Positions 1 to 17,980 of a DNA stretch of 23,771 nt are shown here, piece after piece (the first letter of the stretch is position 1; each line of letters opens with the position of its first letter). The position numbers and the translations under genes were made by a program. Below the pieces are notes generated by a model, which saw only the letters and a program-made list of their open reading frames with translations, was not told where the DNA came from and ran no database searches. The DNA lies in IMG/VR virus record IMGVR_UViG_3300030450_002886, positions 2,730 through 26,500 of that record, one strand, 5' to 3'. This stretch comes from a virus.

Positions 1-560
1 TTATTAGCAATTTTTTTTCTTGGTTGTTTTCCTGTGTATTTAGTAAAATCATAATCATGATATTTTGAAAGTCTTAAAACTATATCTTTAGATAAACCTC
101 TTGATAATTCTGGATTTTTTCTCTCTTTTATGCTATTAGGTAAATTAAAATTAGTCCAATATAAATGTCTACCTCTTTTCTTAGCAGGAATCAAAGGTTG
201 GTAAAATGGTATGACATTTTCAACACAATATTTACCATTAAAAAAAGTATCTAAAAATATTATCTCTTGATACAAGTCCATATTTGGGTATCTCATTTTT
301 AGTACTGTTTTCATTGACAAATTAAATCTACTATGTGTAGGACAAGGAGGACTACTCCATATAAAATCATATTCTTTATAATGGTCTAATAAATATTGGT
401 GTGCGTCTGCTACAATTACTTTATCATTTGGAAATCTCTCTTGATATAGTCTTGCGCATTCCTCATCTAATTCTACCGCAGTTACTTCTATATCATCTTT
501 GACTTCGTTCCATTTATATCTATTACCACCTAAGCAAGCGTATAAATTTAATATCTTCAT
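1..560 (-). CDS. Phage DNA cytosine-C5 methyltransferase (3' end beyond window)
   Basis: Probably transfers a methyl group from S-adenosylmethionine to cytosine C5 in phage DNA. The 186 visible residues open with the AdoMet-binding motif I variant NLYACLGG (residues 5-12), and an acidic residue after the second strand (VELD, 29-32) fits cofactor binding. The catalytic motif IV is SSPPCPTHSR (69-78, nucleophile Cys73). Motif VI is CVENV (112-116). A KRGRHLYW stretch (128-135) resembles motif VIII. The start is ATG at 560, overlapping the upstream stop as ATGA, so translation is probably coupled. The C-terminal part, where the target-recognition domain would lie, is off the window, so specificity cannot be read. 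It is last in the early/replication operon; self-protection against host restriction is the likely role, which is inference. Confidence 0.85.
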   Translation of the reverse strand, partial: MKILNLYACLGGNRYKWNEVKDDIEVTAVELDEECARLYQERFPNDKVIVADAHQYLLDHYKEYDFIWSSPPCPTHSRFNLSMKTVLKMRYPNMDLYQEIIFLDTFFNGKYCVENVIPFYQPLIPAKKRGRHLYWTNFNLPNSIKERKNPELSRGLSKDIVLRLSKYHDYDFTKYTGKQPRKKIAN

Positions 561-5128: not shown

Positions 5129-5512
5129 TTAGTAAAGCCAGAAAACTGCCTCTACTTTATTGTCCTTCCCCTCTAATCTATCTGCCATATCCACATGGAT
5201 AAATGTCTTGGCTATCCCTATTCTACTAAATCCTGCTTCTAATAAGCCACATAGAATCAATGCTCGTTGCCTACTTTCGGTACAATGAATATCAGCGGCT
5301 GCACCTACTATATGAGTAGAGCTTGATACTCCACCTATTTTTTTATTATGCTTTTCGCACCTATATCCACTATTAATCACAAAAGGAGTATTACTATATT
5401 CTCTTGCCACCCTTAATGTATCTATGAATAACTGATTCATCTCATTTTTACCACAGCAAGGACAGTTAAATTCTACATATACCCCTTTTACTTTCCTAAA
5501 ATATTCTTTCAT
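5129..5512 (-). CDS. Endolysin, peptidase M15 (zinc D,D-peptidase-like)
   Basis: A 127-residue single-domain M15-type peptidase expected to cut peptide cross-links or stems of peptidoglycan at the end of infection. The zinc-site pattern is complete: SGYRCEKHN...IGG (48-61), SSSTH with ligand His67, GAAADIH with ligand Asp74, and FIHVD with ligand His106. The N-terminus carries FNCPCCG (15-21), a Cys cluster often seen in phage M15_3 proteins. No signal peptide is present, so export needs a holin, and a 3TM holin gene lies two micro-genes upstream. Length is normal for a minimal M15 endolysin. Bond specificity cannot be read from sequence. Confidence 0.88.
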   Translation of the reverse strand: MKEYFRKVKGVYVEFNCPCCGKNEMNQLFIDTLRVAREYSNTPFVINSGYRCEKHNKKIGGVSSSTHIVGAAADIHCTESRQRALILCGLLEAGFSRIGIAKTFIHVDMADRLEGKDNKVEAVFWLY

Positions 5513-13846: not shown

Positions 13847-14281
13847 TTAGCTAATTGTTTGCGTTAGCTGTCCTGTTCCTTGAAAAGAAGAAGAAAAAGT
13901 AGCTGATTCTTCTGTTGGTGCTGATAGAGAAGCAGATGTCATATATACAGTACCTGTATATTTTGTATCCCCTGTTTCTGTATCAGTTGTTCCAAAAGTG
14001 ATAGTCATAGATGCTCTTGTTAATATATAAGAGTTTATCAAATCATCAGCGTTACTTACTGCTGATCCTCCATCATCTACCCATGCGTACATTCCTTCTA
14101 AATCAACTGTCCAATCTGTTAATCCTTCTTTTACTTCTTTTCTACCTAAACTATCTTTGTTGGTAGTTTCTCTTGGAGATTGATTTACGTTGATAGTACC
14201 ACTTGTTGCATAAGCTACAAGAGTACCTGCTGCATAAATTTTTATCTCCGTTCCATTTAATATTCCTGCTGGTGCTGCCAT
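13847..14281 (-). CDS. Major tail tube protein paralogue B (TP901-1-like)
   Basis: A 144-residue protein with the pattern of TP901-1-type tail tube subunits: ILNGTEIKIYAAGTLVAYAT, then a strand leading to PRETTNKDSLGR, WTVDLEGMYAW, a central helix DLINSYILTRASMTITFGT, and a final hairpin ESATFSSSFQGTG. The monomer should stack as hexameric rings around the tape measure. It aligns without gaps to the upstream-encoded 144-residue protein, with 65 identical positions by hand count, so the two arose by duplication. The ATG follows an A-rich leader. Which copy forms the main tube is not decided by sequence; this one lies closer to the chaperone and tape genes, the usual place for it. Confidence 0.8.
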   Translation of the reverse strand: MAAPAGILNGTEIKIYAAGTLVAYATSGTINVNQSPRETTNKDSLGRKEVKEGLTDWTVDLEGMYAWVDDGGSAVSNADDLINSYILTRASMTITFGTTDTETGDTKYTGTVYMTSASLSAPTEESATFSSSFQGTGQLTQTIS

Positions 14282-14315: not shown

Positions 14316-14750
14316 TTATGTTTCATGTAGTTGTAATATACCACTCCCTTTAAAAGATACAGAAAATGTTGCAGAATCTTCTGTACCTCCTGTCATGCTT
14401 AGGTTAGTAACATAAGCATTCCCAAAATATCTTACATCTCCAGATTCCGCATCTTTAGTACCAAAATGTACCTCGACCATATTTCTGTTTCTTATATATT
14501 GTTTAAATAGATAATCCCCATTTTTAGGATTAGTACCTGCATCTGTTTCCCAAGCGTACATACCATCAGCATCTATGGACCAACTTCTTGTGCCTTCCAT
14601 ACAGCTTTCCCATGCTTGAGAATGGAAACCTGTGGTTTCTCTTGTTGCTAAATTAATAGTCAAGGTAGCAGATGTACCATACATGATTAAATCTGATCCT
14701 GTATATACTTTTATCTCTGTACCATTTAATATTCCATGTGGTCCTGCCAT
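14316..14750 (-). CDS. Major tail tube protein paralogue A (TP901-1-like)
   Basis: A 144-residue paralogue of the next gene: shared ILNGTEIK, RETT, GMYAW, Y-I-x-x-R, FGTxDxExGD and SATFSxSFxGxG landmarks in identical spacing. Differences cluster at residues 41-51 (GFHSQAWESCM against NKDSLGRKEVK) and in the last five residues, regions expected to lie on loops or subunit contacts. It would either co-assemble, form a special ring at the tail terminus or tip, or carry surface properties of its own. Its start lies one base from the stop of the 115-residue virion protein. The family assignment is firm; the separate role is not known. Confidence 0.75.
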   Translation of the reverse strand: MAGPHGILNGTEIKVYTGSDLIMYGTSATLTINLATRETTGFHSQAWESCMEGTRSWSIDADGMYAWETDAGTNPKNGDYLFKQYIRNRNMVEVHFGTKDAESGDVRYFGNAYVTNLSMTGGTEDSATFSVSFKGSGILQLHET

Positions 14751-14751
14751 C

Positions 14752-15099
14752 TTATCCTAAATATAATGCTGCAATAGTTACACTTGTTACTCCTGTATAA
14801 GTTATTGCAATTTGTTCATCACTATTATTATATGCTTGCATTTCAAATGGTCCTATAAAAGCCTCTGCACTTCCCGCAATAGCTTTAGATGCATTAGCTT
14901 TTGTTAATGTACCATAAATAGGAGAATCTACACTTGTAGTTTGGGCTGTGATTGTTACTGTAATCTCACTACCTCCTCCATTTTTAACATGAAGAAATAC
15001 CTTACCATCATTATCTACTACATCCCCATCTGCTGTTGCTGATGCATAGGTTACTGTTGTACCTGCCTCACTAATCTCTTGAGCTGTTAATGTCGCCAT
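14752..15099 (-). CDS. Small beta-rich virion protein (possible decoration protein)
   Basis: A 115-residue Thr/Ala/Val-rich protein, almost all beta strand. Key stretches are DVVDNDGKVFLHVKNGGGSE (26-45), ITVTITAQTTS, FIGPFEMQAYNN and a final VTSVTIAALYLG. The NDGKVFLHVKN...FIGPF pattern recurs in small proteins of phage structural modules that I recall as unnamed head or decoration candidates. No signal peptide or catalytic motif is present. It is encoded between the tail-completion genes and the tube proteins, so it is a structural late gene. Its 5' end overlaps the 59-residue gene by 29 bases. Confidence 0.6.
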   Translation of the reverse strand: MATLTAQEISEAGTTVTYASATADGDVVDNDGKVFLHVKNGGGSEITVTITAQTTSVDSPIYGTLTKANASKAIAGSAEAFIGPFEMQAYNNSDEQIAITYTGVTSVTIAALYLG

Positions 15100-15250
15100 C
15101 TTCTTTTACTTTTTTAGGTTTTTTACTTTTTTTCTTTCCATACCCATTTTCATCTAACCATTGAGCTAATTCTTGAGTTATATCTAAAGTTTGTCCTTCT
15201 TTAAATATTCTTCCGTTTCTATCCCAATCCTTTTGTAATTTATATTCCAT
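15071..15250 (-). CDS. 59-residue small structural-module protein
   Basis: A short open frame from ATG 15250: MEYKLQKDWDRNGRIFKEGQ, then TLDITQELAQWLDENGYG and a lysine-rich tail KKKSKKPKKVKEDGD. The first 38 residues resemble the small SH3-like 'hard-wired parameter' proteins common in phage head-tail modules (strand, NG turn, FKEGQ, strand, helix ending ENG). It lies 5 bases after the 73-residue gene and overlaps the next gene by 29 bases. Tight packing supports it as a real gene; its function is unknown. Confidence 0.6.
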   Translation of the reverse strand: MEYKLQKDWDRNGRIFKEGQTLDITQELAQWLDENGYGKKKSKKPKKVKEDGDINSSRD

Positions 15251-15255
15251 AATCT

Positions 15256-15477
15256 TTAATTTAATATCCAGCCATTCTCTGGATTGTTAATAATCTCTCT
15301 CATCTGATTTTTTGTATATTGAGTTTTACCCTCTAAAAAAGATGGAGTATCTCCTTCAAATTTTACAATAGTTTCTGAGGTATCCATACTATATCTTAAT
15401 GTATGCTGAGAAGATTCTACTACCTCAGAGAATCTTACTGTATCTACATCATCGCTATTTATAATTACATATATCAT
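15256..15477 (-). CDS. Unknown 73-residue tail-module protein
   Basis: No recognised family. The sequence alternates strands and a helix: YVIINSDDVDTVRFSEV, then HTLRYSMDTSETIVKFEG, PSFLEGKTQYTKNQMREIIN, ending NPENGWILN. It starts by ATGA overlap with the stop of the LamG-containing protein and precedes another small protein, so it is cotranslated with tail-completion genes. It is probably a minor neck/tail component or assembly factor. Confidence 0.6.
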   Translation of the reverse strand: MIYVIINSDDVDTVRFSEVVESSQHTLRYSMDTSETIVKFEGDTPSFLEGKTQYTKNQMREIINNPENGWILN

Positions 15478-16586
15478 GATGGTACGTTTCCTTGTATATC
15501 GCCACTTGCCATATTGGTCATTGTTCCATTATTACTATTAGTAGAATCATCAGGGATAGTAGGATATGTAGCTCCATCCCCATTACGCCACCATCCTATC
15601 AATCCTGTATTAGAGGCTATATCAGTAGGGCTTCCACTATTATATAAATTTGTTACTTCTGTACTACTTAATTCTTTATTCCATAAACTTACCTCATCTA
15701 TTTTTCCATCAAAATAAAAAGCACTCCTCTCTGATCTTCCCATATTTAAAGCTGCTGAGGTGTTTTCCATAGCAGTATATGTACCACTACTTGTTGCTGT
15801 TTGTGTAGCTGCTGATCCATCTACATAAATCTTTAATCCAGAAGATGAGCTGTTACCACTATAAGTACAAACTAAATGCTTCCAACTTCCTTGCCAACTT
15901 GTAACAGTAGAATCTATCTGTGTTTGTATCCAAGCTGAGGAGCTATTATCATATAACCTAAAACGTAAATAATCCCCGCTACTTACTAAGATATGATATT
16001 CAGAATTAGAGGAAGCATCTTTAGCAATCAATCCTGTGCTTGTTATATCTACTGCATCAAGCCATAAAGAGAAGCTAAATGCATCATCACTACTCCCATC
16101 TCCAAAAGTAAATGTAGTAGTATCTCCCATTGTAACATAATCATCAACTCCATCAAATTCTAATGAGTAGGAGTTTCTCCATTTCGCATTAATAACTCTA
16201 ATATCAAAATCTATTGCTTTTCTGTATATTCCATTATCTCCTGCATCATCATCAAAAATATCACTATATCCTCTATATTCTGATGATTGTATTGTAATAG
16301 TATTATATGTAGATTCAGATATTCTATCTAATGCTGTGCGTATTAATTGTGCTAAATCACAGGCTTGAGTATATGTTTCACAGTAACAGGATACCATTAA
16401 AGAGTTTATATCTAAACTACTTGCTCCATCCTTAGTATCTGTTGGTGTATCTCCCTCTACATCATAAATAATAAAAGGAAAAGTAGTAGTCTGAGGAGCT
16501 ACATTAGGGAATATCCTTGTAGATACTATATCGGTAATATCAGTATCATTACTTAAAATATTATATATTGCTAATCCTACTTTCAT
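15474..16586 (-). CDS. Tail completion/terminator domain (DUF3168-like) fused to LamG domain
   Basis: A 370-residue, two-domain protein. Residues 1-133 match the tail-completion family (DUF3168/gp17-like): GLAIYNILSNDTDITDIVST, RIFPNVAPQTTTFPFIIYDV, LMVSCYCETYTQACDLAQLI, then RGYSDIF...YRKAIDFDIRVI. Such proteins are usually about 110-140 residues and cap the tail at the neck. Residues 139-345 form a LamG/concanavalin-like domain: YSLEFDGVDDYVTMGD, FSFSLWLD, HLVCTYSGN, KIYVDGS, FYFDGKIDEVSLWNKELS and LIGWWRNGDG. This jelly-roll is a common carbohydrate-binding fold. The fusion would display up to six lectin-like domains around the neck. It shares one base with the gp10-like gene before it. 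Confidence 0.8.
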   Translation of the reverse strand: MKVGLAIYNILSNDTDITDIVSTRIFPNVAPQTTTFPFIIYDVEGDTPTDTKDGASSLDINSLMVSCYCETYTQACDLAQLIRTALDRISESTYNTITIQSSEYRGYSDIFDDDAGDNGIYRKAIDFDIRVINAKWRNSYSLEFDGVDDYVTMGDTTTFTFGDGSSDDAFSFSLWLDAVDITSTGLIAKDASSNSEYHILVSSGDYLRFRLYDNSSSAWIQTQIDSTVTSWQGSWKHLVCTYSGNSSSSGLKIYVDGSAATQTATSSGTYTAMENTSAALNMGRSERSAFYFDGKIDEVSLWNKELSSTEVTNLYNSGSPTDIASNTGLIGWWRNGDGATYPTIPDDSTNSNNGTMTNMASGDIQGNVPS

Positions 16587-17080
16587 TAGTATCCAAATTT
16601 ACCATATTTCTTTAACCTTGCTTCATGTGTTTTAATAGCTTTAGCCATTATATCTATGGCATCTTTCATAGAATTATTTAATACTATTCCTTTACCTTCA
16701 TTCCAAGCTGGACGCATATAAGGTTGATCTCCTGCCTTTGCTGGTCCTTTACCCCAAAACTTAACATCTCCCCCATACTCTATAAAAGCTCCATAGAATC
16801 CTGTTTTCTCTTTACTACGATACGCTCCTTTTACTCTTGGTCCTATATATCCTCCTAAAGACTTTCTACTCTTTTTAGTAGTAAAAAAACCTAAACTCTT
16901 TTTTAATTGCCCTGTATCTTGTTTTACTTTTGACTTAGCAATCTTTAGTATTGGCTTGGTATTCTTTCTCCAGAATCTTTGCCATACTGCTTTTTCGCTT
17001 ACCTGCTTTGGTAGGCTTTCAAACATTTCCTGTATCTCCTTAATTCCTTTTACTTCAATATCTTTTTTTCTACCAGCCAT
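16586..17080 (-). CDS. HK97 gp10-like neck protein
   Basis: A 164-residue protein of the HK97-gp10 type, acting at the head-tail joint. Landmarks: GIKEIQEMFESLPKQVSEKA near the N-terminus; KIAKSKVKQDTGQLKKSLGF (the 'DTGxLxxS' core); GAYRSKEKTGFYGAFIEYGG (the 'FYGxFxEYG' motif); and QPYMRPAWNEGKG (the 'PFxRPA' motif), followed by a C-terminal helix. It is strongly basic. Order head-tail adaptor, gp10-like, tail completion, tube is the standard siphophage arrangement, and length is normal. Confidence 0.85.
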   Translation of the reverse strand: MAGRKKDIEVKGIKEIQEMFESLPKQVSEKAVWQRFWRKNTKPILKIAKSKVKQDTGQLKKSLGFFTTKKSRKSLGGYIGPRVKGAYRSKEKTGFYGAFIEYGGDVKFWGKGPAKAGDQPYMRPAWNEGKGIVLNNSMKDAIDIMAKAIKTHEARLKKYGKFGY

Positions 17081-17081
17081 C

Positions 17082-17408
17082 TTAATCTTTATTTTCTGCT
17101 ATTAATTCTAAAAATCCTTGCCTCCCATCTACTTCATTAATTACTTTTATAAAATAATCTTTACTATCATAAGTTATCTTGGTTTGTAAAGTCAAAGAAG
17201 ATAAGCTCTGATTCCTAATATAAAAATGTACTCTACTCATCCCTGTTATTTTATCATTCTCATCTCCCTCTGTTCCTCCTTTCCATAATACGTTTGCCCA
17301 TCTTGTTGTATATAAACTCCAAGCACTAATAGCTTTTTCTCCATAACTATTAGCAGCAGTAGTGGGATTGTATAATGCTATTCTCCTATCTAACTCTCCT
17401 ATTAGCAT
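17082..17408 (-). CDS. Phage head-tail adaptor (head closure protein)
   Basis: A 108-residue protein matching the head-tail joining family (SPP1 gp16/HK97-type stopper). It begins with LDRRIALYNPTTAANSYGEK, followed by WSLYTTRWANVLWKGGTEGD, then VHFYIRNQSLSSLTLQTKI, and ends DSKDYFIKVINEVDGRQGFL-E-L. The small barrel closes the portal vestibule after packaging and binds the tail. Its first bases overlap the end of the gp6-like gene by 7, and it is followed by the gp10-like gene after one base. Confidence 0.85.
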   Translation of the reverse strand: MLIGELDRRIALYNPTTAANSYGEKAISAWSLYTTRWANVLWKGGTEGDENDKITGMSRVHFYIRNQSLSSLTLQTKITYDSKDYFIKVINEVDGRQGFLELIAENKD

Positions 17409-17980
17409 ACTTGAATTTTGTATTGGTCTAATATCATTTTAGCAGCCATAGGAATCTCTGTTGCTATTCTTCCAATAACTACTGCCTCTCTATTTTGATA
17501 CCAATGACCTACCATTAATAGTATCGCTTGTTTTATTAAATTGCTTACTTCTGTACCATCTTCTGATTCCCCTACTATATAAATAACTTCTACTGCCATC
17601 TTTCTATCTGCTAAATCTGGGAACTCTTGGTCCTCATCAAGTAGTATTCTACATGGCTTAGAGGTGTTATCTACAATATATACAGTATCTCCTAAAACTA
17701 CTTTAGTATTAGAGGTATTGTAATACTGAATCTTAGTAACAGATGATACAGGAGATTTATATAATGTATATATATCTTTCCATGTATCCCCTACCATTGT
17801 TAATGTAGTAGCAATAAAAAATCTATTGGTATAATCCTCTGCGGATTGAGTAGCCGCTTTAACAAGGTTATCTATTAAAGTATCATCATCACTTATATCA
17901 ACTTTTAGATGCGCCTTAGCTTCTGCTGTTGTAATAGGATAAGATGCTGCTGGTGTAGTAACACTATATGATCTTGCCAT
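17402..17980 (-). CDS. Head-tail connector (gp6/phiE125 gp8-like)
   Basis: A 192-residue protein. The N-terminal half has the connector motif ITTAEAKAHLKVDISDDDTL, then IDNLVKAATQSAEDYTNRFF, characteristic of gp6-like adaptor rings that stack under the portal. The remainder is a strand-rich insertion (LYKSPVSSVTKIQYYN...KCRILLDEDQEFPDL-like segment) and a terminal helix EVSNLIKQAILLMVGHWYQN followed by NREAV. The larger phiE125 gp8-type form explains the length. It is the first gene after the capsid-gene terminator. Confidence 0.83.
   Translation of the reverse strand: MARSYSVTTPAASYPITTAEAKAHLKVDISDDDTLIDNLVKAATQSAEDYTNRFFIATTLTMVGDTWKDIYTLYKSPVSSVTKIQYYNTSNTKVVLGDTVYIVDNTSKPCRILLDEDQEFPDLADRKMAVEVIYIVGESEDGTEVSNLIKQAILLMVGHWYQNREAVVIGRIATEIPMAAKMILDQYKIQVC

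Follow-up and report, generated by a model that had tools for sequence, protein, structure and literature searches.

The window analysed here, a stretch of 23,771 nucleotides covering most of the 26.5-kb record of a marine phage (IMGVR_UViG_3300030450_002886), encodes on its minus strand (15474-16586) a 370-aa protein that joins a siphophage tail terminator to a LamG jelly-roll in one frame, open throughout and with zero internal stops. We propose, with a probability of roughly 0.6, that the tail terminator has gained in its C-terminal LamG a fast-diversifying, glycan-binding neck domain served by a dedicated folding or docking partner. This estimate spans both what was computed (the fusion, its recurrence, its linkage to the partner gene, the carriers and the fast LamG) and what we infer (the placement of the ring, the ligand and the function of the partner). 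A preliminary description of the same DNA had pointed out the fusion and overlooked the 73-aa gene that follows it, as well as a wider pattern: a C-terminal LamG domain followed by this orphan partner gene also occurs on a number of unrelated virion proteins, on the adjacent neck protein of a related lineage, and without a carrier.

A tail terminator and a LamG jelly-roll in one frame

The tail terminator domain occupies residues 1-133 (16188-16586, minus strand). It is matched by the Pfam family PF11367 (Tail_completion_gp17) over residues 6-130 (E 2e-7, 31.5 bits, for a Pfam cut-off of 24.5 bits) and by the PHROG tail terminator profile phrog_347 over residues 1-159 (E 5e-60). AlphaFold2 gives this half an alpha/beta fold with the helix/strand order of the terminator type, and it superposes on a 142-aa "tail completion protein" of the viral library with a TM-score of 0.80. 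About six residues further on begins the LamG, or concanavalin A-like, jelly-roll (residues ~139-370, 15477-16172, minus strand), matched by PF13385 (Laminin_G_3) over residues 145-311 (E 5e-23, 82 bits, cut-off 27.6 bits). The in-frame junction described earlier was thus borne out, as was the full jelly-roll, while the LamG part is longer than first stated (~232 instead of ~200 residues, behind a terminator of ~130).

Structure prediction, which had been suggested as a check, supports the same assignment: modelled as a monomer from a 52-sequence alignment, the protein reaches a mean pLDDT of 91.5, with values mostly above 90 in the jelly-roll. Foldseek identifies the C-terminal half as a pentraxin/LamG jelly-roll, with matches to pentraxins, laminin G and agrin modules, and also to the accessory domain D4 of the GH43 arabinanase AbnA and to a Bacteroides carbohydrate-binding protein. 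LamG folds also mediate protein-protein contacts, and sugar binding is not obligatory. The entire terminator-LamG model aligns over 364 columns with the BFVD entry A0A516M548 (405 aa). One could imagine that the LamG half is cleaved or released and works away from the virion, for instance on lysate debris or on cell surfaces. Two observations might hint at this: in other phages LamG is a protein in its own right, accompanied by the same partner, and the model is less confident around the junction (residues 131-140, pLDDT 73, below the neighbouring blocks). We regard it as very improbable, since the junction is highly conserved and shows neither a recognisable protease site nor a conserved cleavage motif.

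The fusion recurs. A search of viral contigs with the terminator part retrieved 66 loci, 62 of them with a complete 3' end, among which seven carry LamG and 55 end at 127-138 aa. Pooling the terminator-, LamG- and partner-based searches, we found terminator and LamG joined on 22 contigs, the studied one included, with terminator identities to the studied sequence down to ~36%; the profile search for the same architecture in other phages proposed in the preliminary description was therefore fruitful. In the nearest non-copies, the N-terminal domain is 61-65% identical and the LamG 54-57%. A frame error, a chimera or an assembly artefact is ruled out by the repetition of the fusion across these 22 contigs. 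Among named phages, no record found by tblastn spans 80% of the query. The phrog_347 profile (394 positions) itself extends over a LamG-like C-terminus: residues 272-424 of one relative (L080) match positions 224-394, and the LamG of another (L099) matches positions 302-394. Judging from these alignments, PHROG 347 already holds terminator-LamG fusions, uncommented; its members share the N-terminal domain of our protein, but the family name "tail terminator" is silent on the LamG half and on the partner gene.

The gene lies in a siphophage structural module on the minus strand, in the order portal, protease, capsid, adaptor (17402-17980), head closure (17082-17408, PF05521), neck protein (16586-17080, phrog_5), terminator-LamG, tail tube, tail chaperones and tape measure. 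The slot of the terminator, between the neck/head-closure and the tail-tube genes, is kept in relatives. The terminator-LamG and partner pair is followed by a 59-aa gene of the neck/tail region (15071-15250, minus strand) with a weak DUF7210/YqbF-like match, which is not specific to LamG carriers (homologues occur in L149 and L078), then by a 115-aa tail protein (14752-15099, minus strand, phrog_16194) and by two tandem tail-tube protein genes (13847-14281 and 14316-14750, minus strand, both PF06199). The doubled tail tube with the 115-aa gene is also seen in L171, L081, L079 and L080; L055, L078 and L149 have a single tail-tube copy. Elsewhere in the window, recognised by eye only, are a partial DNA cytosine methyltransferase-like gene with an SSPPCPTHSRF motif (3-560, minus strand) and a gene for a 127-aa peptidase M15-type endolysin-like protein (5129-5512, minus strand; SGYRCEKHNKKIGG...SSTHIVGAAADIH).

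In terminators of this type, six subunits make a ring atop the tail tube, as in lambda gpU and SPP1 gp17. Such a hexamer has been described for R4C (PMC10276861). By family resemblance, the terminator part of our protein would form such a ring capping the tail tube, and the LamG copies would point outward as a collar around the neck, because six domains of ~25 kDa cannot fit the DNA channel. The collar envisaged in the preliminary description thereby keeps its plausibility, with six copies expected if the protein assembles like other terminators.

A small orphan gene family linked to LamG

Directly after the LamG part, with its start overlapping the LamG stop (ATGA), lies a gene of 73 aa (15256-15477, minus strand) belonging to an orphan family; we list it as a partner on the basis of its conservation as a family, its linkage to LamG and its purifying selection. 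A homologue sits at the same place in the fused relatives and is absent from the unfused ones. Searches of viral contigs with the partner family gave at least 183 and at least 318 loci. Among the 107 distinct loci fetched by the partner family alone and having sufficient upstream sequence, a LamG ORF lies directly upstream in 104 (~97%, detected with our own LamG profile), and in 79 of these 104 the LamG domain ends at most two residues from the stop. An independent check with the Pfam LamG model matched 85 of 88 non-redundant upstream genes. Some LamG genes occur without a partner. When the whole records of 23 wider relatives were scanned, nine contained precisely one copy each of LamG and partner, and the other 14 lacked both; the records could be incomplete, and the relatedness of the phages means that the 23 cases are not independent.

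Searches with 47 diverse partners gave no credible match in Pfam, PHROG or the PDB: no Pfam or PHROG family was matched by more than two of the 47, the best E-value being 0.005. No known chaperone family was recognised in these searches. In nearly 85,000 bacterial and archaeal genomes a single match was found (L226), in a Verrucomicrobia MAG whose 44-kb contig JAOLZO010000020.1 carries the partner directly after a 253-aa LamG gene and near phage-like genes. This contig probably comes from a phage and was binned into the MAG, and a host gene family is ruled out by this one match, placed as it is beside LamG and phage-like genes. Codon comparisons between relatives indicate that the partner is under purifying selection (dN/dS 0.04-0.56).

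Two cultured isolates carry comparable arrangements. In Synechococcus phage S-SKS1 the partner follows a 960-aa multi-LamG protein, and in Flavobacterium phage immuto a longer relative of the partner follows a protein with a LamG-like C-terminus, a likeness seen by eye that the profiles did not pick up. Among titles and abstracts, we found no paper on the virion proteomics of either phage. Several LamG domains or genes stand in a row in L203 (a 125.7-kb contig), L196 and L110; L203 has three copies of the partner gene, which suggests tandem duplication. A C-terminal [VIT]P tail is present in 82 of 108 LamG with a partner versus 19 of 55 without; as a marker of partner-linked LamG, this sequence trait is suggestive only.

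Carriers and divergence of the LamG domain

In five contigs that share the module of the studied phage (L099, L100, L101, L102 and L106), LamG and partner are found on the head-closure protein: PF05521 and PF13385 lie within one 328-aa protein, and the terminator is a plain 135 aa. Other carriers of LamG with the partner are proteins with fibre-like N-termini, a collagen-like protein and a large tail protein, and in other phages LamG is stand-alone, with the same partner. The studied LamG is closest to a stand-alone one (L069, 67-68% identity, versus 54-57% for other terminator-LamGs) and is its sister in the LamG tree. On this tree, the terminator label needs four changes, all four forced by well-supported branches, and an AU test rejects a single terminator-LamG clade (p-AU 0.0055); once the L149 group is omitted, the test no longer rejects that the terminator fusion arose only once (p 0.144). 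The tree thus supports no fewer than two events of joining or exchange, and from these sequence comparisons the LamG and partner pair looks like a portable unit, not a one-off fusion. Exchange by recombination might also have left LamG as a neutral passenger, functionless at the neck, as its patchy presence among close relatives would allow. This is hardly credible, since the open frame and the fold are kept across wide divergence, and the partner is kept alongside under purifying selection.

The divergence of LamG is most informative in the L149 group, five close relatives (L149, L150, L154, L168 and L169) in which the terminator halves are 96-99% identical and the partners 88-96%, with 55-76% for LamG; dN is 0.00-0.03 for the terminator and 0.14-0.50 for LamG. 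LamG dS is also raised in several pairs (L149/L150: 0.19 against 0.55-0.72), pointing to a probable exchange of alleles as well as relaxed or diversifying selection. The variation lies in the LamG body, and conservation is found at the junction and over the final 45 residues: mean column conservation is 0.63 in residues 326-370 (the C-terminal tail nearest the partner gene, 15477-15611, minus strand) versus 0.38-0.47 in the LamG body, and the tail is almost invariant in the five sequences of the L149 group. Only the L149 group shows a clearly fast LamG. In a second group, of L054, L055, L060 and L078, LamG (78-92%) and terminator (88-92%) are about equally conserved, and there as well as in L079/L080 the partner is the most variable part in several pairs. 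LamG is also not the sole fast gene, because the adjoining neck protein of the L149 group (e.g. L149:2331-2891) varies strongly (56-89%) beside its 96-99% identical terminator.

These data bear on whether LamG merely reinforces the head-tail junction, clamping neck subunits or steadying the tail with no glycan binding. A structural role was what the authors of the R4C study read into the Ig-like domain of its neck adaptor (PMC10276861), and it would also suit the finding that another neck protein carries LamG in one related lineage. Yet one would expect a clamp to be conserved along with the proteins it contacts, whereas LamG is the fast part of the gene; 55 close relatives manage without it, and the same LamG type stands alone or on unrelated proteins. 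We thus consider a clamp unlikely, and the variation seems to fit better with a ligand-binding domain on a conserved mount. Adherence, the role put forward in the preliminary description, with glycan binding as its putative basis, becomes more plausible in view of how much faster LamG diversifies than the terminator carrying it. For the diversifying neck domain that we favour, the variable body of LamG would recognise glycans of cells or of particles, providing a weak, multivalent attachment at the neck in addition to receptor binding at the tail tip.

The conservation of the C-terminal LamG tail suggests that the partner may recognise this tail. The partner would most likely be a LamG-specific folding or docking factor acting there, in a gene order like that of tail-fibre chaperones. 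When LamG and partner of L159 were modelled by AlphaFold2 as a single chain, with one stop read through, the model reached a pTM of 0.77 and a pLDDT of 91-97 in the partner; it is compatible with a defined placement or a possible docking of the partner. The same model would equally suit a partner that remains on LamG as a permanent virion subunit and part of the binding surface, in the manner of Mu Tfa and the gp38 adhesins, downstream accessory proteins that stay on the mature fibre (PMC7289586). We hold this for possible though doubtful, since among close relatives the partner changes much less than LamG, whereas a surface that determines specificity would be expected to vary. A close co-adaptation between partner and LamG finds no support, because in the fused genes the divergence of the partner tracks that of the terminator (r 0.80) more than that of LamG (r 0.56), and overall follows LamG weakly (r 0.20). 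Taking the folding or docking factor together with the range of carriers, we see roughly even odds that the pair is an exchangeable display system of marine phages that has so far been overlooked. In it, an orphan family of ~75 aa, present on more than 300 viral contigs, would help to fold or dock a hypervariable LamG at the C-terminus of various virion proteins, including at least two neck ring proteins, this LamG changing the stickiness of the particle.

Comparison with known systems

A functional parallel is found in lactococcal phages of the 936 and P335 groups, whose neck passage structure (NPS), like the neck display predicted here, presents carbohydrate-binding domains that vary between relatives and provide a dispensable accessory adhesion; in 936 phages these domains bind host cells weakly (PMC6669499). 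Fusion to a neck ring protein would imply that LamG is exposed at the neck. The NPS, however, is a separate collar protein of 500-900 aa with a BppU-like base and a trimeric coiled-coil (PMC6669499), whereas here LamG forms one chain with the terminator and is accompanied by a partner gene; the 370-aa protein has no coiled-coil, and its N-terminal domain is a terminator and not a BppU-like ring.

Ig-like domains are likewise promiscuous beta-sandwich domains fused to various virion proteins (PMC9022992), among them the R4C adaptor (PMC10276861). They differ from LamG in their fold, and no dedicated small gene is reported for them in these studies; the five classes reviewed (fibres, baseplate, tail tube, capsid and Hoc) do not include the terminator (PMC9022992). 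The partner gene resembles the tail-fibre chaperones T4 gp38, Mu/lambda Tfa and Alteromonas phage V22 gp27 in its small size and in coming right after a binding domain that ends the preceding protein, as in V22, where the chaperone gp27 is encoded just downstream of the tail fibre gp26 (PMC7289586). These chaperones, however, are of ~20-22 kDa (PMC7289586), and the partner family is of ~8-9 kDa and tied to LamG.

In the literature, we found no paper joining a phage tail terminator or tail completion protein to a LamG or lectin domain, nor one on a LamG domain with a phage tail and a chaperone. The tail tip is where one usually looks for phage adhesion, and a diversifying lectin on a neck ring would point to a second, multivalent contact zone; the partner family, so far unannotated, can flag display domains in uncultured marine phages and is itself testable in cultured ones. 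Decoration domains as such are already known in phages; judged by the libraries and papers that we searched, what is new is a LamG domain on the terminator and on the head-closure protein, together with its orphan partner family.
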